Below are positions 18,239-34,337 of a DNA stretch of 64,000 nt, piece after piece; the first letter of the stretch is position 1, and each line of letters opens with the position of its first letter. This DNA is from a virus, in IMG/VR virus record IMGVR_UViG_3300028610_001024, positions 1 to 64,000 of that record; one strand, given 5' to 3'. Made by a program: the position numbers and the translations under genes. Below the pieces are notes generated by a model. It was not told where the DNA came from. It saw nothing but the letters and a program-made list of their open reading frames with translations, and did no database searches.

Positions 18239-18242
18239 TGAC

Positions 18243-18470
18243 ATGTCGATACATCGTAGTAGGATGAAACAGTGGGCTCAATCCATTAACCCTGATGTAA
18301 CAGAAAGGGATATTGATTGGTTGGTGGAATGTCTACCTGAATCAAGTTCCTTTTCTAATACACTTGACAGGGAAATACAACAAGCAAACCAGGTTGCTAT
18401 CGATCAGGGTACATTCAAAATGTTTCGACTGAACTCTAATGGAACTAAAACAGACATAGCCGAGGAGTAA
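18243..18470 (+). CDS. 75-residue protein
   Basis: Start at ATG 18243 with AAGGAG seven bases upstream. Helical and acidic in the middle. Its stop is followed by the probable microprotein at 18474, and its last codons contain that gene's ribosome site. Confidence 0.62.
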   Translation: MSIHRSRMKQWAQSINPDVTERDIDWLVECLPESSSFSNTLDREIQQANQVAIDQGTFKMFRLNSNGTKTDIAEE

Positions 18471-18473
18471 CCA

Positions 18474-18584
18474 ACGAAAATCACTCTGATAGCTCTAGTC
18501 CTCCATGCATGGGGCTGGCCTGGACTTGGTATCTATGCCATTGTCGTCCTAATAGTTCACTTTCTCGAATGTAAATACCTTTAA
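18474..18584 (+). CDS. 36-residue membrane microprotein with ACG at the start position
   Basis: GAGGAG (18462-18467) is six bases before an ACG codon. From there the frame reads (M)KITLIALVLHAWGWPGL and continues through a hydrophobic stretch ending in FLECKYL. It would be a tidy single-pass membrane peptide if the first codon were ATG. ACG is a rare, weak start, so it may be a mutated gene or poorly translated. The end overlaps the AAAGGAG ribosome site of the next gene. Confidence 0.42.
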   Translation, partial: TKITLIALVLHAWGWPGLGIYAIVVLIVHFLECKYL

Positions 18585-18597
18585 AGGAGTTCCTATC

Positions 18598-18972
18598 ATG
18601 GCGTTTCAATCTCTTCCTCGGACTCGTAGGTCAGTACAGTATCTCCTCACTAAAGTTCAGATCTCCAATTGCAAATCAACTCCTCACGTGTTTAGGTTCA
18701 CAAGTAAAGTTCTTCTAGACCATAGTAAACATTTATTTCCTGGAGCTGAGATTACAATAGATATTGATATCGATAGGTCGCAGGTAGCTTTCCGTAAGGC
18801 GAAAAATAGTGAACCCTCTTGGAGAATCTCTAAACCAAAGAAAAGTAATAGTACATTTAGCTCTAAAAATCTCTATGAGTTGATAGGACTTGGTACATGG
18901 GAAATTATTAAAATTCGAGTTGGTAATAAATACTATCCGGGATTCTATTACGGGCGGATTAAAGGGAAATGA
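18598..18972 (+). CDS. 124-residue basic protein
   Basis: AAAGGAG (18583-18589) fits the ATG. Beta-rich and basic (RISKPKKSNSTF), perhaps nucleic-acid binding. Coupled to the next gene by ATGA. Unrecognised. Confidence 0.64.
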   Translation: MAFQSLPRTRRSVQYLLTKVQISNCKSTPHVFRFTSKVLLDHSKHLFPGAEITIDIDIDRSQVAFRKAKNSEPSWRISKPKKSNSTFSSKNLYELIGLGTWEIIKIRVGNKYYPGFYYGRIKGK

Positions 18973-19190
18973 ACTTATCTAATGATCCAAGGGCCGTATA
19001 TAACCGACTTCGATTAGAAGTTCCTCAGCCAATAAGAGAAGACGCTCTACGAAGGAGTCGTATACAGACCGATCCAACTGAAGAGAATATCAACTCTGTT
19101 TCTGAGATGTACGAGATTGTCTTACTTAAAAAACCAGGTAATCTATTGCATCAGCGTCTTGAGCAAGCTTTTCTAAACCTAAAGAGGTAA
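18969..19190 (+). CDS. 73-residue helical protein
   Basis: Charged helices with RRSRIQTDPTEENIN in the middle. Coupled to its upstream neighbour. Function unknown. Confidence 0.6.
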   Translation: MNLSNDPRAVYNRLRLEVPQPIREDALRRSRIQTDPTEENINSVSEMYEIVLLKKPGNLLHQRLEQAFLNLKR

Positions 19191-19194
19191 ATTC

Positions 19195-19452
19195 ATGAAC
19201 CAAGTCCACCTATCTACTCTCCCGCCGGGTATCGACTTCATCTATCATCATCCTAACGGTAATGATATTGAGTGTCGTTCAGTTGGTAAGGGTAGCTATG
19301 AGTATTTTGACAATGGACTAGGCCAAATGGAAACGCTGTATAGTCCCACCATGCTTTGTGATATAACCAATTCCGATCTAACACTAATGCAAAGTGAACA
19401 AAGGCTTAGTAAACATTTGCGACATAGGTTGCATGTTGAGACTGGGGAGTAA
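19195..19452 (+). CDS. 85-residue protein
   Basis: ATG five bases after the previous stop, with AGAGGTAAATTC upstream. No motif recognised; a beta N-terminal half and a helical C-terminal half. Confidence 0.6.
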   Translation: MNQVHLSTLPPGIDFIYHHPNGNDIECRSVGKGSYEYFDNGLGQMETLYSPTMLCDITNSDLTLMQSEQRLSKHLRHRLHVETGE

Positions 19453-19455
19453 GTC

Positions 19456-19554
19456 ATGGAAAATGTAAAAGATTCTAAAGATAAAGTAATTCGAGTGATA
19501 CAGGATGGCTACCATCAACCTACGTGGAGAAACCTACAAGGATTATTGTGGTGA
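19456..19554 (+). CDS. 32-residue peptide
   Basis: ATG 19456 after GGGGAG. The frame overlaps the better supported gene at 19505 by 50 bases in another frame. It may be a real overlapping gene or chance. Confidence 0.35.
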   Translation: MENVKDSKDKVIRVIQDGYHQPTWRNLQGLLW

Positions 19555-19636
19555 GAGTGATCTAGAGGTAACAGACTGTGATTGTGAGAAGTGCTTCAAA
19601 TTAAGATCACAAGCTTATGCAAAGGATAATCAATGA
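19505..19636 (+). CDS. 43-residue Cys-rich peptide
   Basis: Ends in the ATGA that starts the next gene (19633), supporting translation. CDCEKC near the middle with an earlier C suggests metal binding. It starts inside the 19456 frame. Confidence 0.52.
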   Translation: MATINLRGETYKDYCGESDLEVTDCDCEKCFKLRSQAYAKDNQ

Positions 19637-20106
19637 AAACCACTAAAACCTTCAACCCTTCAATTGAGCAAACCATTCCCAACTTTTTCCCTGACATTAA
19701 ACAACGCAAGCTTGCCTATACCATACTCAAGGTTCTCAACATCATCCCCAATCGTAAACTAATATTTGAAAAGGAACCCAACTGTAGAGGTAAATGTCCT
19801 GTCAGATTATACCTTATCAAAGATCTCAAAAAGGTACAATCACACCTTACCCAAAGCCAAACCATTACTCAAATCCCAAAAGGCTACACCGATGTTCATA
19901 CACTAGAACGAAAGTACGACCTACCTAATAGAACTATCTACCTGATATTCAAAACGGTTGGACTTGAATCAAATCAAATGTATAAACCTGAAGGACTAGG
20001 TACAGGGAGGAAACTGTTTAAGGTTAAGGATACAGAGTATGTAATGAAGTGGATTGTGAAGTCACGGGAACGATTCAGTGATCGAATATCCAACAGAGAG
20101 AGCTAG
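19633..20106 (+). CDS. Helix-turn-helix-like protein, paralogue of 22189
   Basis: 157 residues. The segment TDVHTLERKYDLPNRTIYLI reads like a helix-turn-helix. Over about 60 residues it aligns with the product at 22189: DLAGISERYGIESHRISAGF, then VGLE, then a KxxEYV ending in both. Overlaps the preceding Cys peptide by ATGA. It sits immediately upstream of two sigma-54 promoters, so a regulatory role on this tract is attractive but untested. It has no AAA+ domain, so it is not a classical enhancer-binding protein. Confidence 0.65.
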   Translation: MKTTKTFNPSIEQTIPNFFPDIKQRKLAYTILKVLNIIPNRKLIFEKEPNCRGKCPVRLYLIKDLKKVQSHLTQSQTITQIPKGYTDVHTLERKYDLPNRTIYLIFKTVGLESNQMYKPEGLGTGRKLFKVKDTEYVMKWIVKSRERFSDRISNRES

Positions 20107-20113
20107 TTGAATT

Positions 20114-20129
20114 TGGCACGATTCTTGCA
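20114..20129 (+). promoter_or_regulatory. Consensus sigma-54 promoter D
   Basis: TTGGCACGATTCTTGCAGG is a perfect TGGCAC-N5-TTGCA match, including the preceding T and following G. It begins eight bases after the stop of the HTH-like gene, with an expected start near 20142, 201 bases upstream of promoter C. The long leader would run through the activating region C. Confidence 0.72.
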
Positions 20130-20171
20130 GGCTACCCTCTAACCTTACCCAACTCAACTCTACCAACCCTC

Positions 20172-20227
20172 GATCCAAATTCCTGGATTCAAAATTCTGC
20201 ATACTCCAAGGAATTGAAGTTAGGTAA
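20172..20227 (+). promoter_or_regulatory. Upstream activating region C
   Basis: GGATTCAAAATTCTGCAT and CCAAGGAATTGAAGT carry the ATTCAA/TGAA half-sites found in A and B. TAGGTAA starts at 20221, 94 bases before the -24 box of promoter C. Confidence 0.58.
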
Positions 20228-20314
20228 GTCTATAGGATCATAGAGAGTATGTAGCCCAAAGCATATATGTCGTGGATTTGCTCAATCCATGCTACTCCCC
20301 ACTGAGGATTGAGT

Positions 20315-20330
20315 TGGCATGGACCTTGCT
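20315..20330 (+). promoter_or_regulatory. Sigma-54 type promoter C
   Basis: TTGGCAT-GGACC-TTGCT, with CTCAATC 34 bases upstream. Together with A and B it forms a family with fixed internal spacing. Expected start near 20341, before the gene at 20382. Confidence 0.75.
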
Positions 20331-20340
20331 ATATAGAGGA

Positions 20341-20353
20341 GTGTACGGGACAC
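20341..20353 (+). promoter_or_regulatory. Leader hairpin C
   Basis: GTGTACGGGACAC forms a 4-bp stem at the predicted transcript start, a shorter version of the stems at A and B. Confidence 0.35.
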
Positions 20354-20381
20354 GAACTAACCAAATAAGAGGACTAAGACA

Positions 20382-20636
20382 ATGACCAAGGTCAAGCAAG
20401 CCAAACGCGCCGCCCTCCAAACTAAAGTCCTCAAGGCCTTCCGTAAGATCACAATCATTGAGCTTCTCGACGGTCCCGGGAAAACGGTCACATGTATGGA
20501 CCTAGTCACCTTGGATATCTGCCAGACACACGAACAGGCCATAGAGTTAATGGACGAGATGTGGGAAGCCCAGCAAGTCTACACAGTGAACGGGTATGGA
20601 ACGAGCGCACAAGATCACGACTTCGCAAGCTGCTAG
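20382..20636 (+). CDS. 84-residue protein, first gene of cassette C
   Basis: GAGGACTAAGACA precedes the ATG. A basic N-terminal helix (VKQAKRAALQTKVLKAFRK) is followed by a region with helix-turn-helix character (MDLVTLDICQTHEQAIELM). DNA binding is possible but uncertain. Confidence 0.62.
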   Translation: MTKVKQAKRAALQTKVLKAFRKITIIELLDGPGKTVTCMDLVTLDICQTHEQAIELMDEMWEAQQVYTVNGYGTSAQDHDFASC

Positions 20637-20670
20637 ACTCTAACTGACACCCCAAACAAGGACACACGCC

Positions 20671-20934
20671 ATGCGCTACATCAAACCTCAATCGACCGCT
20701 AAGACTCTCCGCCGTTCCAAGGCAATGCTGATCAACTTAGGTCAGACAGTGACCTCTGCTACGATCCGGAGCAACGGTGAGAAAGCTGAGCCTTACCCTC
20801 TCAAGGCTCTCAAAGGTCGTCTCATGCGAGAAATCCACTCCCCCAACTCTAGTCGATCGGACTACTACCAGGAAGCCGACGGATCCGTTACGATGTTGGC
20901 TCATGGTAACTGTACAATCAAGCTGAGCTTCTGA
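20671..20934 (+). CDS. 87-residue basic protein
   Basis: Basic N-terminus (TAKTLRRSKAM) and a beta C-terminus (SVTMLAHGNCTIKLSF). Unrecognised. It belongs to the same GC-richer cassette. Confidence 0.62.
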   Translation: MRYIKPQSTAKTLRRSKAMLINLGQTVTSATIRSNGEKAEPYPLKALKGRLMREIHSPNSSRSDYYQEADGSVTMLAHGNCTIKLSF

Positions 20935-20944
20935 GGACGATACG

Positions 20945-21103
20945 ATGTCAACCTCAACCTACGATTCACCCTTCGCGGACTACATCGTCAAATTCTCCAA
21001 GGGTCTTACACTCCGAGCACGGCTCGACAAGGACTACAAGGTCGGAGATGAAACAGAGACCCAATTCGGTACCGTTACCATCGTACGCGTACTTGAGGAC
21101 TAG
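20945..21103 (+). CDS. 52-residue protein
   Basis: An ATG frame fits between the neighbours (10 bases after the preceding stop, 4 before the next ATG). Predicted all-beta: DYIVKFSKGLTLRARL, then TQFGTVTIVRVLE. Unknown role. Confidence 0.6.
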   Translation: MSTSTYDSPFADYIVKFSKGLTLRARLDKDYKVGDETETQFGTVTIVRVLED

Positions 21104-21107
21104 CACC

Positions 21108-21422
21108 ATGCAAGACACTAGCACCTACGACGCAGCTCTAGCACTCTTCCTGTCCTACGCTCTCAGCATTCAACCTGAGCAACACGCCAGCTTTCCAGTC
21201 CCTGTTTTCACCATTGAACCCGGCCGTAAGTACGACCGTATCATCCTAGCTAACCCTCACAAGTCCGCTTTCTGTTTCGTCCGTAAGTCCGACGGCGCTG
21301 TGCTCAAGACTGCCAATTACAAAGCACCAGCCAAGCACCCTCGTGGCACGATCTACCTTGACGACCCTAGCAACGTTGACGCCTACGGGATCGGCCCGTA
21401 TGGTGCAAACTACCTGAGATAG
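21108..21422 (+). CDS. 104-residue protein of a small phage family
   Basis: Start at ATG 21108. The region FCFVRKSDGAVLKTANYKAP followed by AKHPRGTIYL is a pattern I recall from many small phage proteins of unknown function. An N-terminal helix and this beta module make up the whole protein. Confidence 0.68.
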   Translation: MQDTSTYDAALALFLSYALSIQPEQHASFPVPVFTIEPGRKYDRIILANPHKSAFCFVRKSDGAVLKTANYKAPAKHPRGTIYLDDPSNVDAYGIGPYGANYLR

Positions 21423-21433
21423 GACTCTCCCCC

Positions 21434-21925
21434 ATGTCTACCACTGGCACACTTTGCCCCCTCTGTCAACATCCCACAGCCACCTACGACCCTTCAGCCC
21501 GTACCCTCATCTGTACCGACTGCGAACATGTCGAGCCCGTCACTTTAGTCCTGGCCATGACCTTGTGGGATGTAGCTATTGATATAAATAACCGGGAATT
21601 TGCCAAGTGTGTCACCGTTGAAAAAGAGCAAGGTTGTGATGAGGATACATGGCTAGCAGCATTAGGCAATGATAAAAAAACTAACGCTATCGAAGCTCAA
21701 CAGAGGGCTATCCGAGCTGAGTACATGACCACGGATGGCATCTTTGACGTCCAACAAGTCGTTCTAATCACTACAATCAAGCACTACGTCCAAGACCTAG
21801 CAGACAGTCCAGACGTCACGCCTGAGAGCCGCCAGCAAGTCTTAGAGCTACTCGAAACCACCGCCCTTAAACCTCAAGTGCTAGTCACTTGGGCGCGTAA
21901 GGTCTTAGCCAAAGCATACAAGTAA
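21434..21925 (+). CDS. 163-residue zinc-ribbon protein
   Basis: CPLC (8-11) and CTDC (27-30) make an N-terminal zinc ribbon, followed by a helical body. Zinc-ribbon plus helical tail suggests a nucleic-acid or polymerase contact, but that is inference. The 263 bases that follow hold no gene I can support. Confidence 0.68.
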   Translation: MSTTGTLCPLCQHPTATYDPSARTLICTDCEHVEPVTLVLAMTLWDVAIDINNREFAKCVTVEKEQGCDEDTWLAALGNDKKTNAIEAQQRAIRAEYMTTDGIFDVQQVVLITTIKHYVQDLADSPDVTPESRQQVLELLETTALKPQVLVTWARKVLAKAYK

Positions 21926-22188
21926 TTCATGACAATTCATAACTGACCACCCCCCTGTAATGACCCAAAACGCTATAAACTGACCTTAGTTAAAGCACTT
22001 GACTTACACCACCTTACCGCTTACCCTTACGGAGTTAGTGGAGCTTTTCAGATTTTTTGTGGCAATCCAGGCTCGGAAATGAACTGGGATCTAAACCATC
22101 TTACAGACTACATTGTCTCGTCTACCGCTTCTGGCCCCTCTTTCATTCTCATTCCAGTGAGTGTACCATGTACCTCCAAAGGACCAAA

Positions 22189-22647
22189 ATGCTAGTTACA
22201 AACTACGACAGCACCAAACTTGAAACCGTTCAAGCCTACTTTCCGAAGTCTCAACAGCCAAAGGCCTACACCTACATCCGTGACCATGAAATTGAGCACG
22301 AAGCTACCTATAGGAAGGCTTCCAAGACTCGCGGACGGGGTTCTAAGCTCTACCCTGTAGATACCCTCCAGGAGATCAAAACGACGCTCAACAAGGCCTC
22401 CCAGGAGGTTCTAACGGCTCTCCCAGACGGGTGTATGGACCTTGCTGGAATCTCGGAGCGATATGGTATAGAATCGCACCGTATCTCGGCAGGCTTCGCC
22501 CTTGTGGGGCTTGAACCGAGGACGACATACCGACGTGGTAAAGCTGGTCGTCCTGTAAATGCCTACAACTTAAAGGCTGTTGAGTACGTCATAAGTGGCT
22601 TACATGAGCTTCGACAGGGACTTGATAATTTTCATGAGGAGTGTTAG
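22189..22647 (+). CDS. Helix-turn-helix-like protein, paralogue of 19633
   Basis: 152 residues from ATG 22189, picked because AAAGGA is seven bases upstream and the length then matches its paralogue. The core DLAGISERYGIESHRISAGF has helix-turn-helix spacing. A basic stretch (RKASKTRGRGSKLY) precedes it. Upstream in-frame ATG 22168 lacks a ribosome site. Likely a sequence-specific DNA-binding protein. Confidence 0.65.
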   Translation: MLVTNYDSTKLETVQAYFPKSQQPKAYTYIRDHEIEHEATYRKASKTRGRGSKLYPVDTLQEIKTTLNKASQEVLTALPDGCMDLAGISERYGIESHRISAGFALVGLEPRTTYRRGKAGRPVNAYNLKAVEYVISGLHELRQGLDNFHEEC

Positions 22648-22650
22648 AGC

Positions 22651-22872
22651 ATGGATCCACTAGAAAGACTTCAAATCCAAACAGAAATCACCATTCTCTT
22701 CATCGATGAGGGGCTTAATAGACAGATCACTCGGAAGATGAAGGCCCGACCGTGTGTAGGGGATGCCGTTGAATGGTTTTACATGCCGTCCCCAATTATT
22801 AAACAGGTTCTAATACCATCAGGGGAGAAGGAGAGCCAATTCACAAAGTACGACTTTGTTTGTATACTCTAA
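22651..22872 (+). CDS. 73-residue protein
   Basis: GAGGAG lies before the previous stop. N-terminal helix and beta C-terminus. No family recognised. Confidence 0.6.
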   Translation: MDPLERLQIQTEITILFIDEGLNRQITRKMKARPCVGDAVEWFYMPSPIIKQVLIPSGEKESQFTKYDFVCIL

Positions 22873-22893
22873 CTCTCTTACAAGGAATGGATC

Positions 22894-22986
22894 ATGGACC
22901 CAACCAAAACCCTAGCTGAGTTTCTACATACCTGTAAAGGTACGTTCAACTTATCTATCACCTACCCGACATACTGGAGACCATAA
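22894..22986 (+). CDS. 30-residue peptide
   Basis: AAGGA precedes ATG 22894 and the stop overlaps the next start (TAATG), suggesting coupling. Too short to assign. Confidence 0.5.
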   Translation: MDPTKTLAEFLHTCKGTFNLSITYPTYWRP

Positions 22987-23204
22987 TGTCCAACCTTCTA
23001 CCCACACTCGGAGTCTTCCCTTTAACCCCCACCCATGAGATACTTGACGGTGAACCTGTAGACGCAACCCAATTTGGCTGTAATCCCAGTGGGTCTTTAC
23101 ATGATTACACTGAGCATTCGACTGAGGTCTTAGCAGAGGAGGCACTATCTCAATATCGAATATATCAGGCAATTAACACTCTCATAGAGGCAAAACTGGG
23201 GTGA
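22986..23204 (+). CDS. 72-residue acidic protein
   Basis: Coupled on both sides (TAATG and GTGA). The C-terminal half is an acidic helix. Unrecognised. Confidence 0.6.
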   Translation: MSNLLPTLGVFPLTPTHEILDGEPVDATQFGCNPSGSLHDYTEHSTEVLAEEALSQYRIYQAINTLIEAKLG

Positions 23205-23398
23205 TCACCCCAGAAGACCTCACCACTTACACCAACGATGAACTCACTCAACTTCAGCAACTCCTCAACCTTGAAACTGTCAAGCCCTGGCGTACAGTTA
23301 AGAGTCTACAAGCTGGACTAGAGAATGTACTACCGTACAAGGGTAAAAGTGAGCTTGATAATCTTGAACCGTCCGACCTATTAAAAGATGAGAAATAA
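23201..23398 (+). CDS. 65-residue protein with GTG start
   Basis: GTG overlaps the previous stop. A leucine-rich helix (DELTQLQQLLNLE) in the first half. Last gene of cassette C. Confidence 0.57.
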   Translation: MITPEDLTTYTNDELTQLQQLLNLETVKPWRTVKSLQAGLENVLPYKGKSELDNLEPSDLLKDEK

Positions 23399-23442
23399 GT
23401 GTAGTCGATGATTGTCCGGTGCTTCGCCCTCTGAGAAAGTCG

Positions 23443-23750
23443 ATGAGTGTGGTACAACAGGGATACATAGTGCAATCAACGGTCGATGGAGTAACCCACT
23501 TGTCTCGTAGGTGTTACTGGTTCCCCTCTAAATTGGAGGGTACATGGGTTCACGATAGCGTCTCACCTCGACAGACTGTATAACCTGGGAAATAAAGCCA
23601 ACCGACTTCTGCCGCGCTACGTGGGACCCAGAGAACGGCAACTGCAAGGCTGGACCGTGGCACCCTTGGCCACCGTTGATTCTGGAGACCAAAAAAGTAG
23701 CAGAAAATGAGTCGTCCTCAATAAAGGACATTATCGTCCCCTTACGGTGA
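23443..23750 (+). pseudogene. Frame-disrupted gene between cassette C and the sigma-54 promoter E
   Basis: ATG 23443 reads 46 codons (MSVVQQGYIVQSTVDG onward) to a TAA at 23581. The -1 frame, open from 23559, continues as a protein-like Trp/Cys-rich sequence (CITWEIKPTDFCRATWDP; WHPWPPLILETKK) to the TGA at 23748. Joined near 23557 they give about 100 residues. I do not recognise the family. No slippery heptamer is present, so a lost base is likelier than programmed shifting. Confidence 0.5.
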
Positions 23751-23856
23751 CACTTCTACACTCTTGTATTTTTGACCGCTCAAAACCTTGCTATACCATA
23801 ATACTCTCTACACAGTCACACACTGAAACCTCCCCTGACTGTCTAAAATCACTCCT

Positions 23857-23872
23857 TGGCACAGCGTTTGCA
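23857..23872 (+). promoter_or_regulatory. Consensus sigma-54 promoter E
   Basis: CTTGGCACAGCGTTTGCATG is a perfect TGGCAC-N5-TTGCA. Expected start near 23884, inside the palindrome described next. It lacks the TAGGTAA/CTCAATC boxes of the A-C family, so its activator may differ. Confidence 0.7.
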
Positions 23873-23883
23873 TGTACATTTTC

Positions 23884-23897
23884 TAGTGTGGACACTA
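23884..23897 (+). promoter_or_regulatory. Palindromic operator at the start of promoter E
   Basis: TAGTGTGGACACTA: two perfect six-base arms around GG, lying exactly at the predicted transcription start. Related TAGTGTG sites cluster at 28.7-29.1 kb. Likely a repressor site. Confidence 0.55.
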
Positions 23898-23928
23898 AAC
23901 CAATAACTCACAATTAAAGGGCTTTTTT

Positions 23929-24081
23929 ATGACCAAAGAAACTTGCTACAATATGGGACATTGTGTTCCTTTGTGCGGCGTCCGTACAGTAAAGCTGACA
24001 GCTGATAAGAAAAAAACGACTTGCCCTAACTGTCTGAATCTACTACTTACTTATCCCAAGGAGCCTACTATCGAACCTTAA
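23929..24081 (+). CDS. 50-residue zinc-ribbon protein
   Basis: ATG 23929 after TTAAAGGG. CYNMGHC, PLCG and CPNC give four or more zinc ligands. It is the first gene under promoter E, followed by the NYN-cold-shock gene; a C10 run lies between them at 24102. Confidence 0.62.
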   Translation: MTKETCYNMGHCVPLCGVRTVKLTADKKKTTCPNCLNLLLTYPKEPTIEP

Positions 24082-24150
24082 CCCCTTTACTATTAACCCC
24101 TCCCCCCCCCCTAATCTAACGCCTCTACTCTTAAAAGGATAACCCCTTCT

Positions 24151-25062
24151 ATGTCCAACTCCACCTCTATTTTCGTCGATACCAGTAACGCCTACCACAA
24201 TGGTGCAAATAATCTTCGTTATGATGAGCTACTCCGTTTTGCTCAACGTGATGGACGTAAGGTACAGCGCTATACAGCTTACTGCACCTATGACTCAGAT
24301 AAAGATGACGGATCGTCTGAAGGTAATCTTTATGCTGAGGGCCTGGAGAAGTTCTGGGCTAGTCTAAGCGGATTTGGATATAAAGTCCATAAGGAGTACG
24401 TTAAGTGGCAAGGAAACGGTGGTAGTCGTAGACCAAAAGCTAATGTAGATATTCGTATGACAGTTGACATGCTTACGCAAACAGCTTCCGACACCATTTT
24501 ACTTGTAACTGGGGACGGTGATTTTATCCCTTTAGTTGAAGCTCTACAGCTAAGAGGTATTCGAGTAGAAGTGATGAGCTTTCTCAATTCCTCTTCTGCT
24601 CTACAGGAATGTGCTGATTATCACATTAACGGAGCACTCCTCCCCGGGGTGATTCCTATTCAACAACCTGTCAATGCTGAAGTTGCAGATGAAGACTCTC
24701 ATAAACCTGTCTACTTCAACCACGGCGAACCTGGCTCAACTCTAACCGGACAAATATACTACTTTAAACAGGAGAATAATTTTGGATTTATCCGTTATTT
24801 ACCCCTGGGTGAGTATAGTAATCTTCACGTTACAAGTACTGAGGATCCTATAACGTCCTTCAAAACTGTTCATGTTCACGGTAGCAAGCTTTTACCTAGA
24901 GATAGATACCCCTCAAATACAGTCTGGAAATTTGACCTAAAGAGTAGTGAGGTTAAAAAAGGGCAACTCACAGCTGTAAATCTTCGACCTGCGTTGACAC
25001 CTAAAAATACTAAACCCCCTCATAACTCTACTCGTCCACAACAATCACCCGATAAAGGGTAA
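24151..25062 (+). CDS. NYN-domain RNase fused to a cold-shock-like domain
   Basis: 303 residues. Residues 1-165 are an NYN (LabA/DUF88, PIN-like) nuclease: FVDTSNAY with D10 and N13, D100 and D106 in VDIRMTVDML, and D122/D124 in VTGDGDF, the expected acidic metal site. Residues about 190-270 resemble a cold-shock/OB domain (GQIYYFKQENNFGFIRY). NYN proteins usually cleave RNA, and the OB part would hold the RNA substrate. The tail is proline-rich. AAAAGGATAACC precedes the start. A role in host RNA decay or defence evasion is speculative. Confidence 0.82.
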   Translation: MSNSTSIFVDTSNAYHNGANNLRYDELLRFAQRDGRKVQRYTAYCTYDSDKDDGSSEGNLYAEGLEKFWASLSGFGYKVHKEYVKWQGNGGSRRPKANVDIRMTVDMLTQTASDTILLVTGDGDFIPLVEALQLRGIRVEVMSFLNSSSALQECADYHINGALLPGVIPIQQPVNAEVADEDSHKPVYFNHGEPGSTLTGQIYYFKQENNFGFIRYLPLGEYSNLHVTSTEDPITSFKTVHVHGSKLLPRDRYPSNTVWKFDLKSSEVKKGQLTAVNLRPALTPKNTKPPHNSTRPQQSPDKG

Positions 25063-25097: not shown

Positions 25098-25499
25098 ATG
25101 TCAAAGTCTGACCCTGAACCCACCGTCAAAGATGAAACTGTTACCACTACCCCCCAAGCTGAGCCTACCCGTGCAGCTAACGCGTTCCGTGCGAGTGACT
25201 CTAAGGACAACAGTGATGCAGGCGGTAAACTCTATCTTCCAATCGAGGTCTACCTTGATAGTCCTCAAGTGAATTCTCTCAGGAAAGCGGGGTTTACAAC
25301 TACGGGAGCTATGCGGGGGTATCTCACCGAGTGCTTCAGTGGTAGTGATGAAGCCGTCACTAAGAAAGTGGCTGAATTTCTTACCCCAAGAAACCTTCTC
25401 GCTTCAGCTATTGCATGGAAGAAGAAGTCCCTGAAGACCAGGAATGAAGCACTCGCGGCCGAGATGGCTAAGAACGAAGCAGAACTCGCTGACCTATAG
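25098..25499 (+). CDS. 133-residue protein closing the NYN operon
   Basis: The disordered acidic N-terminus (about 45 residues) leads to a folded domain (KLYLPIEVYLDSPQVNSL) and a coiled C-terminal helix. The domain could be a small DNA-binding or adaptor fold. An intrinsic terminator follows directly. Confidence 0.65.
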   Translation: MSKSDPEPTVKDETVTTTPQAEPTRAANAFRASDSKDNSDAGGKLYLPIEVYLDSPQVNSLRKAGFTTTGAMRGYLTECFSGSDEAVTKKVAEFLTPRNLLASAIAWKKKSLKTRNEALAAEMAKNEAELADL

Positions 25500-26063: not shown

Positions 26064-26118
26064 CCCTTCGGGGGATTGAATGGTAATTTTACTGTACAAA
26101 AGTAAAAAGGAAGAAGAA

Positions 26119-26571
26119 ATGAACAACCCATCAAGAATCGTATTTCTCAATACATCCATCGTCACAAGCCCTGGAGTTTGGATTTGACGGAAGTGCTCTG
26201 CTGAACACATTGTAAATTACTTAAGAGACTTTCCCAATAGACTCTCGGCGGTTGGACATGAAGCCACCGCGGCAGCTATGACAAAGCTATTTGGTGAGGA
26301 GGTCACCATAAATCGTGTCTTCTGGGAAGCTCGGAAAGGTGACATCGCCGTCGTCCTTAAGGTCAAGGTACTCAACGCCGAGGAGCTTGCTGAAATAGGG
26401 TACGAAGTTGGGTTACTTTCTTTCGCTCTGCCAATTGATTTTGGTGGGGCCGATGAGGAATATATGCCAGCTGCTCTTCGGTGGCTTGCGCGTCAGTTCA
26501 TCGTCGCACACTCCATGACATTTCTAGGCGGTACGGATTACCCCGGTGGTCCACTTAGACATGCTGAATGA
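26119..26571 (+). pseudogene. AcrIII-1 (DUF1874) viral ring nuclease gene with in-frame TGA
   Basis: Reading on from ATG 26119 gives NNPSRIVFLNTSIV, then after the TGA at codon 23 (26185-26187) RLSAVGHEATAAA, NRVF, GDIAVVLKV and EELAEIGYEVGLL. This is the DUF1874 signature: the N-terminal strand, GHE.TA, NR and GD.A.V. The catalytic histidine of the family falls at codon 47, as in SIRV1 gp29. These enzymes degrade cyclic tetra-adenylate and so disarm type III CRISPR. The only later start, ATG 26278, would lose that histidine. About 45 residues after the normal family end are extra. Purines (GGAAGAAGAA) precede the ATG. Confidence 0.72.
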
Positions 26572-27589: not shown

Positions 27590-27593
27590 AGTG

Positions 27594-27788
27594 ATGATTG
27601 AAGTAGGCGGTAAATGGACAAAGATAAAGGATCATGATTGCAGTCGACCTAATGCAGAGGAAGCTATAAGGGTCTTACCTAGGGGAAGTGAGTGGACGTG
27701 TGAGTGTGGTAAACTCTATATGTTAATAACCAAACAAGGCAAGCCAGTGATGATTAGTATACCTCACTATGATCACGGTAAGGAATAA
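27594..27788 (+). CDS. 64-residue protein with CxC motif
   Basis: ATG 27594 eight bases after GAGGAG. WTCECGKLYM and an earlier DHDC could bind a metal. Such short C.CG proteins are common in phages. Function unknown. Confidence 0.62.
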   Translation: MIEVGGKWTKIKDHDCSRPNAEEAIRVLPRGSEWTCECGKLYMLITKQGKPVMISIPHYDHGKE

Positions 27789-27789
27789 T

Positions 27790-28002
27790 ATGAGACCCAA
27801 ACCAGATAATCCTCACCCTGACTTCAAATTTGTACCCTTAACCCTAAGTGGCTCCTGCGGTATCAGTCCTTCAATCCCACAAGGTTCTATCAACTACCAA
27901 AAAAAGTACGCCCCTGTGTATGAAAAAGCAGCACAGGAAAAGCTACAAAATAGAGAACCTAATAGGTATAGCTACTGGCCAGCTGGACACTGTAATGGTT
28001 AA
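27790..28002 (+). CDS. 70-residue protein
   Basis: Start at ATG 27790. Proline/asparagine-rich, with few charged patches. It overlaps the following membrane gene by eight bases. Unrecognised. Confidence 0.55.
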   Translation: MRPKPDNPHPDFKFVPLTLSGSCGISPSIPQGSINYQKKYAPVYEKAAQEKLQNREPNRYSYWPAGHCNG

Positions 28003-28123
28003 ATACCTACTTTGCCTTCTCGTGGGGTACTTATTAAGTTCCCTTGTTCAATTTGTCAAATCTATGCGAAGCGGTTCAACAGATTTGCCTGAAAACTACG
28101 CAAAGGAAATAGATAATGACTAA
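27995..28123 (+). CDS. 42-residue single-pass membrane peptide
   Basis: KYLLCLLVGYLLSSLVQFV is a clear transmembrane helix, followed by a short acidic tail ending LPENYAKEID. The tail sequence recurs in a remnant at 28316. Coupled to neighbours. Confidence 0.6.
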   Translation: MVKYLLCLLVGYLLSSLVQFVKSMRSGSTDLPENYAKEIDND

Positions 28124-28298
28124 GATAGAGCCCCAGATTAAAAGTATTACAATGGATACAAACCCTATTCATAAGGATTGGGAAGTAATAATTCGGTTTC
28201 AACTACCTAAACTCGATGGAGTAACTACTGACGAAGCTGCTGGAATTGTACGGGGGTGGATGGAGCAAGCTATGAGAGAAACAGAACTCCACTATTAG
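28116..28298 (+). CDS. 60-residue protein
   Basis: Overlaps the membrane peptide by eight bases. An alternating beta/helix pattern (WEVIIRFQLPKL; EAAGIVRGWMEQAMRE). Unrecognised. Confidence 0.58.
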   Translation: MTKIEPQIKSITMDTNPIHKDWEVIIRFQLPKLDGVTTDEAAGIVRGWMEQAMRETELHY

Positions 28299-28315
28299 GT
28301 ACTTCGCTGTGTGAT

Positions 28316-28351
28316 CTACCGGATAACTATGCAGAGGAGATTGATCAATGA
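28316..28351 (+). repeat. Remnant of a duplicated membrane-peptide tail
   Basis: Translates as LPDNYAEEIDQ then stop, closely matching the tail of the protein at 27995 (LPENYAKEIDND). It also overlaps the ATG of the next gene, so the copy may have supplied a ribosome site (GCAGAGGAG). Confidence 0.55.
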
Positions 28352-28524
28352 TAATTGTTAATCAAGTCGGACCAATATTCAAAGGTCCAATGTCTATACC
28401 CAAGATAGTAGCTAAAAGATTAGGGCTATCCCAGGGAGATAATATCTCAGACACTCAAGGGTTAGAAATATCCTATGCTTTACTCACACACTGTAAAGAG
28501 ATGATGAGACAAGGAATTAACTAA
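28348..28524 (+). CDS. 58-residue helix-turn-helix-like protein
   Basis: GAGGAG precedes ATG 28348. SIPKIVAKRLGLSQGDNIS suggests a short helix-turn-helix or AbrB-like part. Weakly supported function. Confidence 0.5.
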   Translation: MIIVNQVGPIFKGPMSIPKIVAKRLGLSQGDNISDTQGLEISYALLTHCKEMMRQGIN

Positions 28525-28770
28525 CTTTTATGTTCAAGGGTTACTCCACTGTGTTAACACACTCATACAATTTCCCCTTCACTTTCTGCTCTACTTTGTA
28601 CTCCCTTGCATTATACTTCGCTCCCTCCCATAAGCACCTTAGGTGTATTTTATGCTACCGGATTGGTGTGCTCGAACCCTCTACACTAAACCACATTGTG
28701 GACCTGTATTCAAAAAACCCATCAACGTAGCATTTCCTCAACCCCTCCGCATCCTTTTCAACCCTTTAAA

Positions 28771-28798
28771 CTAGTGTGCTTTTCCTTTTCCACACTAG
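28771..28798 (+). promoter_or_regulatory. TAGTGTG inverted pair
   Basis: CTAGTGTG (28771-28778) and CACACTAG (28791-28798) face each other across 12 bases. Same arms as the operator at promoter E. Confidence 0.5.
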
Positions 28799-29024
28799 GT
28801 GTATTCAAATCCCATGCTACCTACCGCATGGTAGCCCTCTCTATATTTTTTCTCTCCTGTAACTGCTGACAATCGACAAATACAGTTAAAATGAAAAATA
28901 CACTAAATCGTTTTAGAACTTCCGGATAATCGATATTATGTCAACGTGTATTTTTCGACTAGGGTGAACAGTCGACTTCCACACTAAGTCAGACTTCAAT
29001 AAACATAAGGCCTTTACGCTTTTT

Positions 29025-29040
29025 GAGTGTCCACACTAAT
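29025..29040 (+). promoter_or_regulatory. TAGTGTG-type operator, compact
   Basis: GAGTGTCCACACTA: AGTGT and ACACT around CC, a near copy of the palindrome at 23884. A half-site ACACTAAG lies at 28981. Confidence 0.45.
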
Positions 29041-29058
29041 TCAATCTGTATTTTTTAC

Positions 29059-29092
29059 CTAGTGTGCCTAGTGTGTTAGCCTTAGACACTAG
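29059..29092 (+). promoter_or_regulatory. Tandem CTAGTGTG sites
   Basis: Direct copies at 29059-29066 and 29068-29075 and an inverted GACACTAG at 29085-29092. They lie 100-130 bases before the gene at 29190 and probably control it. Confidence 0.5.
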
Positions 29093-29189
29093 CAAGTGGC
29101 TGAAATATATTCTTATTCTTAAAGAGCACGAATCGTGCCAAATACGTACCCTAAGTGAAAAAAGTTCAACTTTTTTGGAGACCGCTCCC

Positions 29190-29825
29190 ATGAGTGATTC
29201 CCGACGCAGCCAACTCTCAACTCATACTGATTACCATCTACTCATAGCTAAAAACTCCCCTATAGACGTACCTACCCAACTTGACGAATTTCAATGCCTT
29301 ATCACTACAGGGTTATCCCCAAAAGATAGTTACTATAAATTAGCACAATCCTGGGCTCGACAGTATAAAGTCAACCAAGAAACTCAACAGAAAATAGATA
29401 ACCAGCCAAAACTAGCAGAGGATAGTTACGATCTAATTCTACCTACCTCCTGTAGCACTTGGCATGGACGTGGTGATAGTTGCATTGAACCTGCTACTCA
29501 ATACTTAGTAGACCCTAATGGCTATCTAATTCCTAACGGTCATGTCTGCTCAGGTCATGCTTACAGTATCCTATTAGAATACAAAGAAAAACTAGATGAA
29601 CATTGGACCTCTATCCCTATCTACTTTTCCCAGTATGGTCCTACTATCACCCTTGAGGCACACCAACACTTTATCCACCAATCTCTAACTAAGCCTATGG
29701 CCGATGAATTATTACTTATTCAAGGTTACATAAAGCTCAAAATGTCAGAACAAGTATTTAACTTTTCTAGATCATTGGCACGAGCTGGGATAGACTTACT
29801 AAATGGTGAACAGCAAAAGTGGTAG
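29190..29825 (+). CDS. 211-residue protein
   Basis: Started at ATG 29190 because TTGGAG is correctly placed; an upstream GTG lies among the operators. A central CSTWHGRGDSC and a later CSGHAY contain potential metal ligands. The position after an operator cluster suggests regulated expression. Family not recognised. Confidence 0.65.
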   Translation: MSDSRRSQLSTHTDYHLLIAKNSPIDVPTQLDEFQCLITTGLSPKDSYYKLAQSWARQYKVNQETQQKIDNQPKLAEDSYDLILPTSCSTWHGRGDSCIEPATQYLVDPNGYLIPNGHVCSGHAYSILLEYKEKLDEHWTSIPIYFSQYGPTITLEAHQHFIHQSLTKPMADELLLIQGYIKLKMSEQVFNFSRSLARAGIDLLNGEQQKW

Positions 29826-30143
29826 ATTTACCTACTACTCTATCTAGATTCCCACACGGGCCTATACGCGCGCACGAGGGGATCATATCTACCTTCTACT
29901 CCCACCACACTCCACACATACCCCACAATGCGAGACTTTAACCCTAAGACGTGACCACCCCCTACAAGCCACGAGAACTGCCCTTTACCCCCACTCGTTC
30001 CTTACAGGTCCTCCTATGGCTCCACGTACGTTCTATCCTTACGCCTTACTTACGCCTTCCACCTTTTCTACCGTCGCATTACCGCCCCCTTGAAAAAAGT
30101 TGAGATAGTTCTTGACACCTGAATACAGGTATGGCAAGGTCAT

Positions 30144-30166
30144 ACCCGTCAAGAGGTCTGACGGGT
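30144..30166 (+). promoter_or_regulatory. 8-bp leader hairpin
   Basis: ACCCGTCA and TGACGGGT are perfect complements around a 7-base loop. No T-run follows, so it is not a terminator. Confidence 0.55.
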
Positions 30167-30182
30167 TGTCATCCTTTTGAGG

Positions 30183-30242
30183 GGTAGGTACTTTAAGGTT
30201 AAAAACGGACTCATGACTAGATAACGCGAATAAGTACCTACC
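30183..30242 (+). promoter_or_regulatory. 11-bp long-range leader stem
   Basis: GGTAGGTACTT (30183-30193) is perfectly complementary to AAGTACCTACC (30232-30242), enclosing 38 bases. It ends 21 bases before ATG 30264, so it could control that gene's translation. Confidence 0.55.
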
Positions 30243-30263
30243 TCTACATCAGGAATAAACTAC

Positions 30264-30458
30264 ATGGAACTTAGAACACAGGAAAAAAGAACTTTTCAGG
30301 CTGAATACACCGCTGGCAATTCTGCAACTGTAGATAGTATTCAATCCCGTAAGCAACTCCTCAGACTAGCCAGATCCAATCCCAATATCCTCCAGTCTAA
30401 CTCCTATCTCTCAAGTCTATCTAAAATTGACCTCCTAAACTTACTCAATGGAGTCTAA
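30264..30458 (+). CDS. 64-residue protein behind structured leader
   Basis: Helical, ending in a leucine-rich stretch (LSSLSKIDLLNLLNGV). Follows AGGAATAAACTAC. Unrecognised; probably leader-regulated. Confidence 0.58.
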   Translation: MELRTQEKRTFQAEYTAGNSATVDSIQSRKQLLRLARSNPNILQSNSYLSSLSKIDLLNLLNGV

Positions 30459-30463
30459 TAGAA

Positions 30464-30628
30464 ATGGAGTGCCTAACCCACCCTCAATTACTACTTCTAA
30501 CAACTCAAGACCGCAAAAAGTACGACCATTATGGGTTCCCTCGCAACCTCATCGCAATTACCAAGTCTCGTAAAACGAAACGCCGTAATAAAATCGTCCG
30601 TGTAAGTCGACGACGTAACCGAAAATAA
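30464..30628 (+). CDS. 54-residue highly basic protein
   Basis: ATG 30464 lies five bases after the preceding stop. The last 25 residues are almost all K and R (KSRKTKRRNK, VSRRRNRK). Probable RNA or DNA binder. It directly precedes the folded element at 30637. Confidence 0.55.
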   Translation: MECLTHPQLLLLTTQDRKKYDHYGFPRNLIAITKSRKTKRRNKIVRVSRRRNRK

Positions 30629-30636
30629 CTCCACTG

Positions 30637-30687
30637 TCAGACCATAAAGCCTAGCTTAGCTAAAAAGCCGTGACTAGGTAGGTCTGA
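30637..30687 (+). ncRNA. Folded element with two stacked stems
   Basis: TCAGACC (30637-30643) pairs with GGTCTGA (30681-30687), and inside it CCTAG (30650-30654) pairs with CTAGG (30674-30678). It lies between two small genes. It could be a leader of the next gene or a stable RNA; no family recognised. Confidence 0.4.
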
Positions 30688-30715
30688 TAGACTACGATTC
30701 ACTAGGTAATTGAGG

Positions 30716-30796
30716 GTGGAAAATCGTCAATGGAAAAGTGCATGGTTTGAACTGCAACCAATTGATGAAAAGGATTCATTCTACACTGAGTACTAA
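30716..30796 (+). CDS. Possible 26-residue peptide (GTG start)
   Basis: A GTG start within TGAGGGTG; the frame reads ENRQWKSAWFELQPIDEKDS and stops two bases before the next ATG. The tight fit supports it, but there is no strong ribosome site. Confidence 0.33.
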   Translation: MENRQWKSAWFELQPIDEKDSFYTEY

Positions 30797-30798
30797 TC

Positions 30799-31056
30799 AT
30801 GATCTACCAAATAGAAACCTCTCGTGGCGACCGTATCGACATCCCTATTGATATCTCTACAGTAGGTAAACCTCACCACTCTACTGAGACTACCCTAGTA
30901 GTTAATAACTCCCTAACCCAAGCTCTACTTTCCCCAAAACTAACCAATAAAATAATCACCCGAGCATGTCTACAATTCAACGATCATCTAATCCCTATAC
31001 TTTCAACTCAACTTGCTGATGATTTGGCTCGGGCTAAGTCGATACGAAGTAAATAA
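30799..31056 (+). CDS. 85-residue protein
   Basis: Beta-rich N-terminus (YQIETSRGDRIDIPIDI), helical C-terminus. Unrecognised. Weak ribosome site. Confidence 0.57.
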   Translation: MIYQIETSRGDRIDIPIDISTVGKPHHSTETTLVVNNSLTQALLSPKLTNKIITRACLQFNDHLIPILSTQLADDLARAKSIRSK

Positions 31057-31061
31057 TACTT

Positions 31062-31136
31062 TCAAGGTCGGACCCTCTACACGGTTCGATTCCGTAGAGC
31101 GCTCATTGGTAGGTAAAGGGATCCAGCCGACCTTGA
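31062..31136 (+). ncRNA. Folded RNA-like element with tRNA-like pieces
   Basis: A perfect 10-bp stem (31062-31071 with 31127-31136) closes 55 bases. Inside, CTCTAC/GTAGAG encloses GGTTCGATTCC, which looks like a tRNA T arm, and 8 bases later GCTCATTGGTAG resembles a D arm. The T-like part precedes the D-like part, the reverse of a normal tRNA, and no acceptor/CCA end is formed. It is therefore not called a tRNA. It could be a leader for the gene at 31162, a permuted tRNA-like relic or a mimic. Confidence 0.4.
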
Positions 31137-31161
31137 TTAAATTTCTGTAAGGACATCCACA

Positions 31162-31632
31162 ATGATCATCACACACCAATTCCAATTCGGCATTACAGCT
31201 GATCTTAATACCCCCATTGCCTTCGATCCTTACAAACTCAAGTGGCCCGACTGGCTTATCCCTTTCACGCTCGCTTCAAAGTACAGTGACCATTCTATCT
31301 ACATCCGTAACAATGCATGGCATTTATGTACAAAGCAACACGGTGAGTGTACCATACCCATCTCACATTACATAACTTTAGACGATAACAATCAACTGGA
31401 CATATCGGCTGAGGAACAATCTATCTCAACAGCAATTGAAACAACAGCAATTGAAACAACAGCAATAGAAGAACTAATTACACCTACACCCGAAGCCACT
31501 GAAGCTCTAACTGAAATGGGTATCGACATTGATCTCCCACCAGCTAAAACAGTTATACCTACAGATAAGAAACCCCCACGTAAGCCCCGTAAACGTAAGT
31601 CCAAAGCTGCCTCTAAAAAGGACGACCTATGA
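31162..31632 (+). CDS. 156-residue protein with short peptide repeats and basic tail
   Basis: After a folded first 95 residues come three copies of a TAIE-type unit coded by a 15-base repeat, an acidic/proline linker and a Lys/Arg tail (KKPPRKPRKRKSKAASKK). Probably a nucleic-acid binding protein with a flexible tail. AAGGACATCCAC precedes the ATG. Coupled to the next gene by ATGA. Confidence 0.62.
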   Translation: MIITHQFQFGITADLNTPIAFDPYKLKWPDWLIPFTLASKYSDHSIYIRNNAWHLCTKQHGECTIPISHYITLDDNNQLDISAEEQSISTAIETTAIETTAIEELITPTPEATEALTEMGIDIDLPPAKTVIPTDKKPPRKPRKRKSKAASKKDDL

Positions 31633-31970
31633 AAGAGATCACCGTTGACGGTTACAAGGTATCCAAAAAACTTCAGGTTGAACAATACATTGCTATTCTA
31701 TCACACGGTCCAACATGGACTGGAAATCTAATTAGCAAGTCGGCACGAACTGCACTTGTAACTCAAGGATATATCCGCTGGGATGATCAAGCTGTTGATT
31801 CTCGTCATAAATCGCCAGGAGCTTACATTGCTACTTTTGCTACATTACGGTATCAATCATCACAACAAGCAACTCTCCAAGCCTCTAATGGTAGAGAAAT
31901 GACTAAGATATCCTTACACTCAAATCCTATAGGTGAATTAGTTCTAATACATGACCAACTACCCACTTGA
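31629..31970 (+). CDS. 113-residue protein
   Basis: Starts with a basic beta stretch (EITVDGYKVSKKLQ) followed by helical and beta parts. Possibly a small winged-helix protein; not certain. Confidence 0.6.
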   Translation: MKEITVDGYKVSKKLQVEQYIAILSHGPTWTGNLISKSARTALVTQGYIRWDDQAVDSRHKSPGAYIATFATLRYQSSQQATLQASNGREMTKISLHSNPIGELVLIHDQLPT

Positions 31971-32045
31971 AAACCTATATAACTCTAATCTTTAATGTCA
32001 AATGTTTAATACTGAATATAAACGATTTACTGTGAAGACCGAAAA

Positions 32046-32642
32046 ATGCCTAATATAATATCAAAAAAAGTAGGTAAACCTGGACGTCCAAAAGGTAGAA
32101 AGGATTCTAAGCCTCGATCCCGTAGATCGAATATTCAGATTCAAATGGAAAATGATACATTTGATTTAGAGACACTAGGTAAAAACTATTATGAATTAAG
32201 GAAGAAAATGTATCCAGCGGGGGAATGTTTAACATTGTTAGGCTATGGTGATAGTCGACGACATGGAATGAAACAAAAGGCTAGAGCGGGAAGTGAACCA
32301 GAGAAACTATTCTTTCTAGAGCTGGCCCGTGCTGAAGAAAGGTTAAGGAAAAAGTATATAGATAAGTTTATTAAGGTCTCAGAGAATAGCCCAGCAGGGA
32401 TGAATAATGTTGTGGAGAAAATGTTTCCACAGATTCCTCGAAAGGTTAATCAGCTTGCAGTTGATTATAAGGTATTAGAAGAGATGCGTACAATTGTGCC
32501 CGAAGTTGGTGGGATGTTTATTGGGGCCTTATTAAGTAAAAAGGTGCCACCAAAGTGGCGCATAATAGCTCAGGAAGCGTTCGTGGAATTGTTTAATAAT
32601 GCAATTGAGAATAGGGAAGATATGTTGGAGTTGAGGGAGTAG
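32046..32642 (+). CDS. Probable terminase small subunit
   Basis: 198 residues. An AT-hook-like GKPGRPKGRK start is followed by a helix-turn-helix-like region and an acidic-basic helix (GSEPEKLFFLELARAEERLR), the layout of many small terminases (HTH, then EPE...ARAEE helix). The C-terminal 70 residues recur in a partial copy at 33516. The position well upstream of terL is unusual but occurs in phages. The alternative is a generic DNA-binding protein. Confidence 0.52.
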   Translation: MPNIISKKVGKPGRPKGRKDSKPRSRRSNIQIQMENDTFDLETLGKNYYELRKKMYPAGECLTLLGYGDSRRHGMKQKARAGSEPEKLFFLELARAEERLRKKYIDKFIKVSENSPAGMNNVVEKMFPQIPRKVNQLAVDYKVLEEMRTIVPEVGGMFIGALLSKKVPPKWRIIAQEAFVELFNNAIENREDMLELRE

Positions 32643-32648
32643 ATAGAT

Positions 32649-32870
32649 ATGTCAAAAGAAGAAGTATCTAAAGCTTTAAAAGGTGAGACGGTAAGAGATT
32701 ATCTTGATAGAGTGTCCGGATTAGAGTCGATTATACGAGGTGAGGTATAATTCAAGGATATCATTATCAAGACTCAGGATCTACATAAAGGTAGTGTGTT
32801 AATAGTGGGCAAGTCTGATATGTTAGGCCCGATACCTGATAAGCCTTTACCGGAAATTATCTTGTTATGA
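32649..32870 (+). pseudogene. Small gene with in-frame TAA
   Basis: ATG 32649 gives 33 codons (MSKEEVSKALKGETV onward) to TAA at 32748. The same frame continues as FKDIIIKTQDLHKGSVLIVG to the TGA at 32868. Both halves look coding. Either the stop is a mutation or only the 33-residue product is real. Confidence 0.42.
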
Positions 32871-32892
32871 TGATGTGGAAGTGGAGTAAGTA

Positions 32893-33096
32893 ATGCGGCG
32901 TAGATTAGTAAAGAAGATTCTAAATCAGTGTAGAAGTAGTAGAAACATTACTAATGCTGAAATCCACAGGCTATGGATAATATCAAAACGCAAAAGTGAG
33001 CAACGTACTAGACAATGGATAGAAGGTGAAGGGAGTAAGTATCTACATGAGGTAGGGGATCGACTCGTGATTATAAGATTGGGTAATGCAGAGTAG
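32893..33096 (+). CDS. 67-residue basic protein
   Basis: Starts MRRRLVKKIL; strongly basic with helices. Follows GGAGTAAGTA. Unknown. Confidence 0.55.
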   Translation: MRRRLVKKILNQCRSSRNITNAEIHRLWIISKRKSEQRTRQWIEGEGSKYLHEVGDRLVIIRLGNAE

Positions 33097-33179
33097 TTGG
33101 AATAGACTAAGGTTATATTGAAAAAATCTAGAAAGGATGGCATACTGAGAATAATCTAATGTGGGGGTGAGACATTTAG

Positions 33180-33287
33180 ATGAAAGTGTTAGAAGTAGAT
33201 ACCAATGTAAAGTTATTCTCAGGGGATACGTCCAGGCCCCGGAGACGAAGCCACTCCTATTCCCTCCACCTTCAGGGGGCGACCTGA
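33180..33287 (+). CDS. Possible 35-residue peptide
   Basis: ATG frame with a basic C-terminal half (SRPRRRSHSYSLHL). Composition turns GC-rich from 33225 onward, like the following segment. Weak support. Confidence 0.3.
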   Translation: MKVLEVDTNVKLFSGDTSRPRRRSHSYSLHLQGAT

Positions 33288-33348
33288 TGATGCTAGGTCG
33301 GTGAGGGGGGAGAAATGTTTGAACCTCAGAAACCACAGGAAGCTACCA

Positions 33349-33570
33349 ATGTACGAAATTGAGTCCAGAACCGGTAAAAGAGAGTGTGAACTACTCGCTC
33401 TCGTCGGTGCCCCTTGGCAGCTACTCGACGACGTTGACACCGCGGGTGACATAGCGAAGGGTGATAACGTTACCTACCAACAGATCGTCGAACGCGTCCA
33501 GGCAATGCCCCTGAGTTGCAACGAAATGTTAACCAAATGGCGGTTGATACTAAAGCTTTGCAGGAAATAA
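33349..33570 (+). CDS. 73-residue protein in GC-rich insert
   Basis: AGGAAG is eight bases before ATG 33349. Mixed sequence (GKRECELLALVGAPWQLLDD) unlike its neighbours, with distinctly higher GC. It overlaps the terminase-like fragment at 33516 in a different frame. Possibly acquired DNA inserted into the duplicated gene. Confidence 0.45.
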   Translation: MYEIESRTGKRECELLALVGAPWQLLDDVDTAGDIAKGDNVTYQQIVERVQAMPLSCNEMLTKWRLILKLCRK

Positions 33571-33725
33571 GGTTAATGATTCCTGAGATTGTGCCGTTAT
33601 TTGAAGGGGAATTACTACGTGAGAAAGTACCGCCGAAATTCCGGGCAAAGTGTGAAGAAGTATTTGTGAGGCTGTTTAATAATGCAGTTGAGGAAAGGGA
33701 GATGATGTTGGGGTTGGGGGAGTAA
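33516..33725 (+). CDS. C-terminal duplicate of the terminase-like gene
   Basis: From a TTG at 33516 the frame reads QRNVNQMAVDTKALQEIRLM and continues to FNNAVEEREMM, aligning over about 69 residues with residues 130-198 of the gene at 32046. The N-terminal DNA-binding part is missing. It is probably a truncated duplicate, perhaps still translated as an oligomerisation domain. Confidence 0.5.
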   Translation: MQRNVNQMAVDTKALQEIRLMIPEIVPLFEGELLREKVPPKFRAKCEEVFVRLFNNAVEEREMMLGLGE

Positions 33726-33729
33726 AGTA

Positions 33730-33930
33730 ATGCTTTTGTTTAGAGATCAATTGCAGGTAGTTGATAGGCCCGATGGAATACTATGTACAGCTGATGGAAT
33801 TAGCACCAGTGGGAATATTCATTGCAGAGTTGAGGTAGGAAAAGATAAAGAGGGGAATCTATTTGTTCTACTGTGTGAGTTTATAAGTCTGGAAGATGTA
33901 GGAGATAACCATACTGGGTATGTTGGATGA
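33730..33930 (+). CDS. 66-residue protein
   Basis: ATG five bases after the preceding stop (GGGGGAG upstream). Predicted beta (VVDRPDGILCTADGIST; LFVLLCEFISLED). Coupled to the disrupted gene that follows. Confidence 0.55.
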   Translation: MLLFRDQLQVVDRPDGILCTADGISTSGNIHCRVEVGKDKEGNLFVLLCEFISLEDVGDNHTGYVG

Positions 33931-34041
33931 AGTTAGAAAGTGTAGACAGGAAACATTGAAGCAGATATAACTCCAAAACGTTGGCAATGCTATCGTCATT
34001 GGTGCGCTGAGAATAACCTAATGTGGAGTGAGATATTCTAG
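33927..34041 (+). pseudogene. Frame-disrupted small gene with HWCAENNLMW motif
   Basis: ATG 33927 reads nine codons; after a one-base shift near 33954 the frame continues IEADITPKRWQCYRHWCAEN and so on to TAG. A shorter relic of the same motif (ENNLMW) lies at 33146-33180, so this belongs to the tandem duplication. Confidence 0.45.
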
Positions 34042-34079
34042 CCCGATTGAAAATCCTAGTAAGTATAGGATAAATACTA

Positions 34080-34337
34080 ATGAGTGAAAGTGAACAATGT
34101 GCTAGGGCTAAAGCCGATGGAATTAGATATCGGAAAGATCTCCAGGCTAAAGCTGATCAGTCTAATCTATTCGATCAACGTGTCCAAAAGGTTATCACTA
34201 AGCTATACGATCCAGAACGGTTAGATACCTTTATAGATATCTTTATAGGTGCGTTCGCTCAATTGCCAGAATTAGATAAACAACGCTGGATAGAGCGGAT
34301 GGCAAGGGAAATAGTTAAAGGAATGGATTGGGAATGA
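34080..34337 (+). CDS. 85-residue helical protein
   Basis: Charged helices throughout (RMAREIVKGMDWE at the end). AGGATAAATACTA upstream. Overlaps the next ATG (ATGA). Unrecognised. Confidence 0.58.
   Translation: MSESEQCARAKADGIRYRKDLQAKADQSNLFDQRVQKVITKLYDPERLDTFIDIFIGAFAQLPELDKQRWIERMAREIVKGMDWE

Follow-up and report, generated by a model that had tools for sequence, protein, structure and literature searches.

A 77,728-base IMG/VR record is the source of the window analysed here, that is, the whole 64,000-nt stretch of DNA. Family assignments place terminase, portal and major head genes on this record, which also encodes an N-acetylmuramoyl-L-alanine amidase. Together, these genes identify it as a tailed phage, whose host would be a bacterium. 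On the plus strand, a frame opens with an ATG at 26119 and closes with a TGA at 26569-26571, and AAGGA (26107-26111), seven bases 5' of the ATG, reads as a likely ribosome-binding site. The first 22 codons (26119-26184) hold the start and first strand of a DUF1874 domain, and codon 23 is an in-frame TGA (26185-26187) with C as the next base. The rest of the domain (26188-26433, its end set by eye on the alignment) retains GHEATA, whose catalytic histidine is codon 47 and thus encoded only downstream of the TGA, as well as the NR pair, and lacks the RxxEG motif. Beyond the usual family end, the frame continues for 45 codons up to the final TGA (26434-26571). A gene for an NYN-domain protein (PF01936, 91.8 bits) lies two genes upstream on the same strand (24151-25062).

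The start, the frame, the TGA at codon 23 with its following C and the position of the histidine had all been read correctly in a first-pass annotation of this DNA, which had also named the gene as DUF1874 and proposed a profile search as a check. This search bears out the assignment. The whole frame matches PF08960 (STIV_B116-like, DUF1874; the AcrIII-1/Crn2 ring nuclease family) at 50.5 bits, with an E-value of 1.3e-14 and against a curated cut-off of 26 bits. The match spans profile positions 1-100 of 101, with one TGA inside, and the piece after the TGA scores 40.2 bits alone. In random frames of the same composition, 150 codons with no more than one stop would arise with a probability of about 0.005; the family match carries more weight as evidence. 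Normal translation from the ATG would give a 22-residue peptide at most. No ATG, GTG or TTG start occurs between the TGA and codon 54, past the catalytic histidine, so a restart cannot yield a protein that contains this residue. The open frame for a whole DUF1874 domain, as expected of an active AcrIII-1, is therefore interrupted at codon 23.

A second lesion lies further downstream. At a junction between codons 82 and 83 (26364/26365, plus strand, the precise position depending on the alignment), seven residues (21 nt) including RxxEG are absent relative to all aligned homologues, with the reading frame preserved; none of these homologues carries the deletion. The motif corresponds to R85 and E88 in SIRV1 gp29, as counted on the fetched record. 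We take both residues to belong to the active site of that protein, which acts on cyclic tetra-adenylate (cA4), and to be situated at the ligand in its structure, 6SCF. The phage frame thus lacks a motif expected of an active AcrIII-1 ring nuclease. A simple slip between direct repeats was considered as the origin of the deletion and set aside: two copies of AAGGT follow closely on each other at the junction, yet a slip should leave one copy.

Conservation of the motif was assessed in two alignments. The first set the phage frame beside 12 homologues, all taken from named virus records, and each of these 12 rows contains RxxEG. The second comprised 14 homologues from IMG/VR and a Bacillota genome (14 of 19 frames, near-duplicates having been dropped); the motif is present in 13 of these rows, and the exception, L028, keeps the arginine. 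Across loci L017-L048, 28 of the 31 homologous frames carry RxxEG. These counts are partly non-independent, given that L037 and L038 are one gene, L024 and L030 encode identical proteins and the L031 protein is the same as that of a Hydrogenobaculum phage record (L011). One of the 20 IMG/VR loci (L021) has no DUF1874 frame and stands outside the count. The motif is missing from three loci, L028, L048 and L023, the last being the frameshifted one; each retains the arginine (L023 in its second frame). The IMG/VR loci were picked by a GHEATA pattern, so that conservation of GHEATA is built into the set, while that of RxxEG is not. The first-pass annotation had described the DUF1874 signature as intact save for the TGA, which the loss of RxxEG contradicts. 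It had also offered a suppressible stop or a C-to-T error as possible causes of the TGA. Both options are weakened, since a protein read through this codon would still be without the arginine and the glutamate.

The 3' end of the frame also departs from the family. In both alignments, DUF1874 members mostly finish a few residues past the last strand. The 45-codon tail had no match in Pfam or in the phage records; the chance of 45 open codons at the same composition is about 0.15, so that loss of the old stop may simply have let the frame run on.

Several lines of evidence bear on how the TGA is read and on the soundness of the sequence. TGA closes 14 of the 48 long plus-strand frames of the window and seems to serve this phage as a normal stop codon. 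ARAGORN detected no tRNAs within the window and two in 62000-77728 (Met-CAT and Leu-TAA), with no suppressor among them. The RNA 3' of the codon-23 TGA is no more structured than shuffled sequences (z +0.67). The codon score of the broken frame is coding-like and above that of its two alternative frames. A coding-potential scan of the record, which required stop-free codons on both sides of a break and a minimum score, returned 10 interrupted frames, eight of them on the plus strand at TAA or TAG and none on that strand broken by TGA; the scan missed the DUF1874 gene itself, so such cases can escape it. One of the two interrupted minus-strand frames ends at TGA; it lies opposite the NYN gene, and we regard it as a shadow frame. 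We rejected general decay and a faulty assembly as explanations, there being no plus-strand TGA break among the 10 interrupted frames.

By sequence, the closest solved relatives are AFV3-109 (E 1.9e-4) and STIV B116 (E 0.16, not significant). A search of 50,697 phage records with the piece after the TGA gave six matches, all below 60% identity, from Fusobacterium phages and filamentous archaeal viruses. No relatives were retrieved from IMG/VR with the DUF1874 gene, the NYN gene or the next gene, from the phage records with the 10 kb around the DUF1874 gene, with the capsid gene, or among plasmids. The terminase query gave three matches, to distant Microbacterium phages, and the phage terminase was not found in 11 records among the 20 IMG/VR loci, most of them with DUF1874. 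A strict DNA pattern had a single match, in a Bacillota MAG locus.

Compared with AcrIII-1 proteins (SIRV1 gp29, 6SCF; AFV3-109, 2J6B; STIV B116, 2J85), the phage frame shares the DUF1874 fold, as judged from the profile match, the sequence and the predicted structure, together with the GH, whose histidine occupies codon 47 as it does in gp29, the NR pair and an N near the start. It differs from them in the TGA, the missing counterparts of R85 and E88, and the tail. The YddF-like/Crn2 DUF1874 proteins encoded by Bacillota genomes and by Fusobacterium phages are nearest in the style of the first half, and the four best-covered Fusobacterium and Bacillota rows show 32-36% identity to the phage frame. 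Unlike the phage copy, their frames are unbroken, and RxxEG is present in 10 of the 11 Bacillota loci. A viral DUF1874 gene with a broken frame also occurs in an IMG/VR phage record (L023, about 2300-2900), where the break is a frameshift right after GHEATA rather than a stop codon. L023 and L028 make up a subgroup in which the motif arginine is present and EG is lacking.

An AlphaFold model of the read-through product has a pLDDT near 91 across residues 21-80; the value drops to about 71 over residues 81-90, where the deletion junction falls, and is below 50 in residues 129-150. All 16 PDB matches to this model with E <= 0.001 were DUF1874 proteins, including 6SCF and Csx1-Crn2. Any protein made by read-through would thus be predicted to retain the DUF1874 core fold, which leaves room for a binding-only protein.

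AcrIII-1 enzymes cleave cA4 fast and thereby block type III CRISPR, with the histidine acting as general acid (PMC7371418). We consider the locus most probably, at roughly 0.8, a decayed pseudogene in a tailed phage, derived from a viral ring nuclease of the AcrIII-1 type. The ancestral enzyme would have silenced type III CRISPR effectors by cutting cA4; the copy would then have been broken by the early stop, the in-frame loss of the RxxEG arginine and glutamate, and run-on past the family end. From the family assignment, the stop, the missing motif and the tail, we infer that function was lost, and that this happened once there was less need to remove cA4. The frame is otherwise open, the deletion is in frame, the codon score is coding-like and a read-through product is predicted to keep the core fold, all of which count against a pseudogene, as do L028 and L048, which are without EG and indicate that a change in the motif need not mean a dead gene. 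Loss is still the best of the three options first offered for the TGA. The first-pass annotation had suggested that it was recent; close relatives that would date it did not turn up in our searches.

An unlikely alternative is that the TGA stems from an error in the consensus or the assembly, or belongs to one allele of a polymorphism, and that the real gene is open and encodes a divergent DUF1874 protein without RxxEG, which may serve as a cA4 sponge that binds without cutting, or in another role. The sequence comes from a single metagenomic record, and the otherwise open frame, its codon score and the predicted core fold count in favour of this reading. Binding and cutting are, moreover, separable, as the inactive H47A variant of SIRV1 gp29 still binds cA4 and leaves it uncut (PMC7213978). 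Against this, the scan found no other plus-strand frame broken by TGA, so the consensus is not visibly error-rich, and the tail has no homologues. The absent RxxEG residues, presumed to be ligand-adjacent in 6SCF, also make cA4 binding doubtful. Quite improbable is a version in which the protein is made, the stop being suppressed or miscalled, and acts as a cA4-binding sponge or regulator that has lost the RxxEG loop and gained a new C-terminal tail.

Slightly more improbable still is a leaky or recoded stop, at which TGA is sometimes read as sense to give a low level of full-length ring nuclease. TGA followed by C is a leaky context, as found at codon 23. On the other side stand the many frames of this phage that TGA closes, the lack of a suppressor among the tRNAs found and of a significant stem after the TGA, and a product that would still be without RxxEG. 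An alternative genetic code, with TGA read as an amino acid throughout the organism or phage, has nothing in its favour beyond the single codon 23 and is, for practical purposes, refuted by the 14 long frames that end at TGA, by the long, open terminase, portal, head and helicase genes without internal TGA, and by the coding-potential scan, which gave no second TGA-broken frame on the plus strand.

A decayed AcrIII-1 gene suggests that an ancestor of this phage lineage met cA4-producing type III systems and gained by removing cA4. The first-pass annotation had concluded that hosts of the lineage use cA4 signalling, which overstates the case: a broken copy is evidence of past use at most. PMC12409355 reports AcrIII-1 from 36 phage genomes out of 28,114. 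Automated AcrIII-1 calls can include dead copies, as the Pfam cut-off is passed here despite the absent RxxEG. Our literature search retrieved no paper on AcrIII-1 pseudogenes, on SIRV1 gp29 E88 or on Tad6 with Thoeris.

Read-through scans of 14500-24110 and 27590-36801 (plus strand, stops treated as residues) gave only matches to DUF7717/PHROGs and to Tad6, both inside open ORFs. The latter is a Tad6-like type I Thoeris inhibitor (PF25188, 76.1 bits, cut-off 27) at 34645-35079 on the plus strand. As its frame is open and apparently intact, the counter-defence set of the phage has not been lost as a whole. That this phage lost its type III anti-CRISPR gene and keeps one for a Tad6-like anti-Thoeris protein adds a small data point on the trading of counter-defences by phages.

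The G+C content of the DUF1874 gene is 49%, compared with 41% for the window, and at third codon positions it is 46%, compared with 32% for the long frames. This excess fits acquisition from elsewhere, an argument weakened by the adjacent stretch 25151-25450, which is equally G+C rich. Elsewhere on the plus strand, the open frame at 21048-21422 matches DUF7717 at 36.2 bits, overlapping PHROGs of unknown function. Coding density (ORFs of at least 80 aa) is about half in 20000-24000 and 28000-36000 on this strand, compared with at least 0.9 in the structural region, which reflects either many small genes or non-coding sequence.
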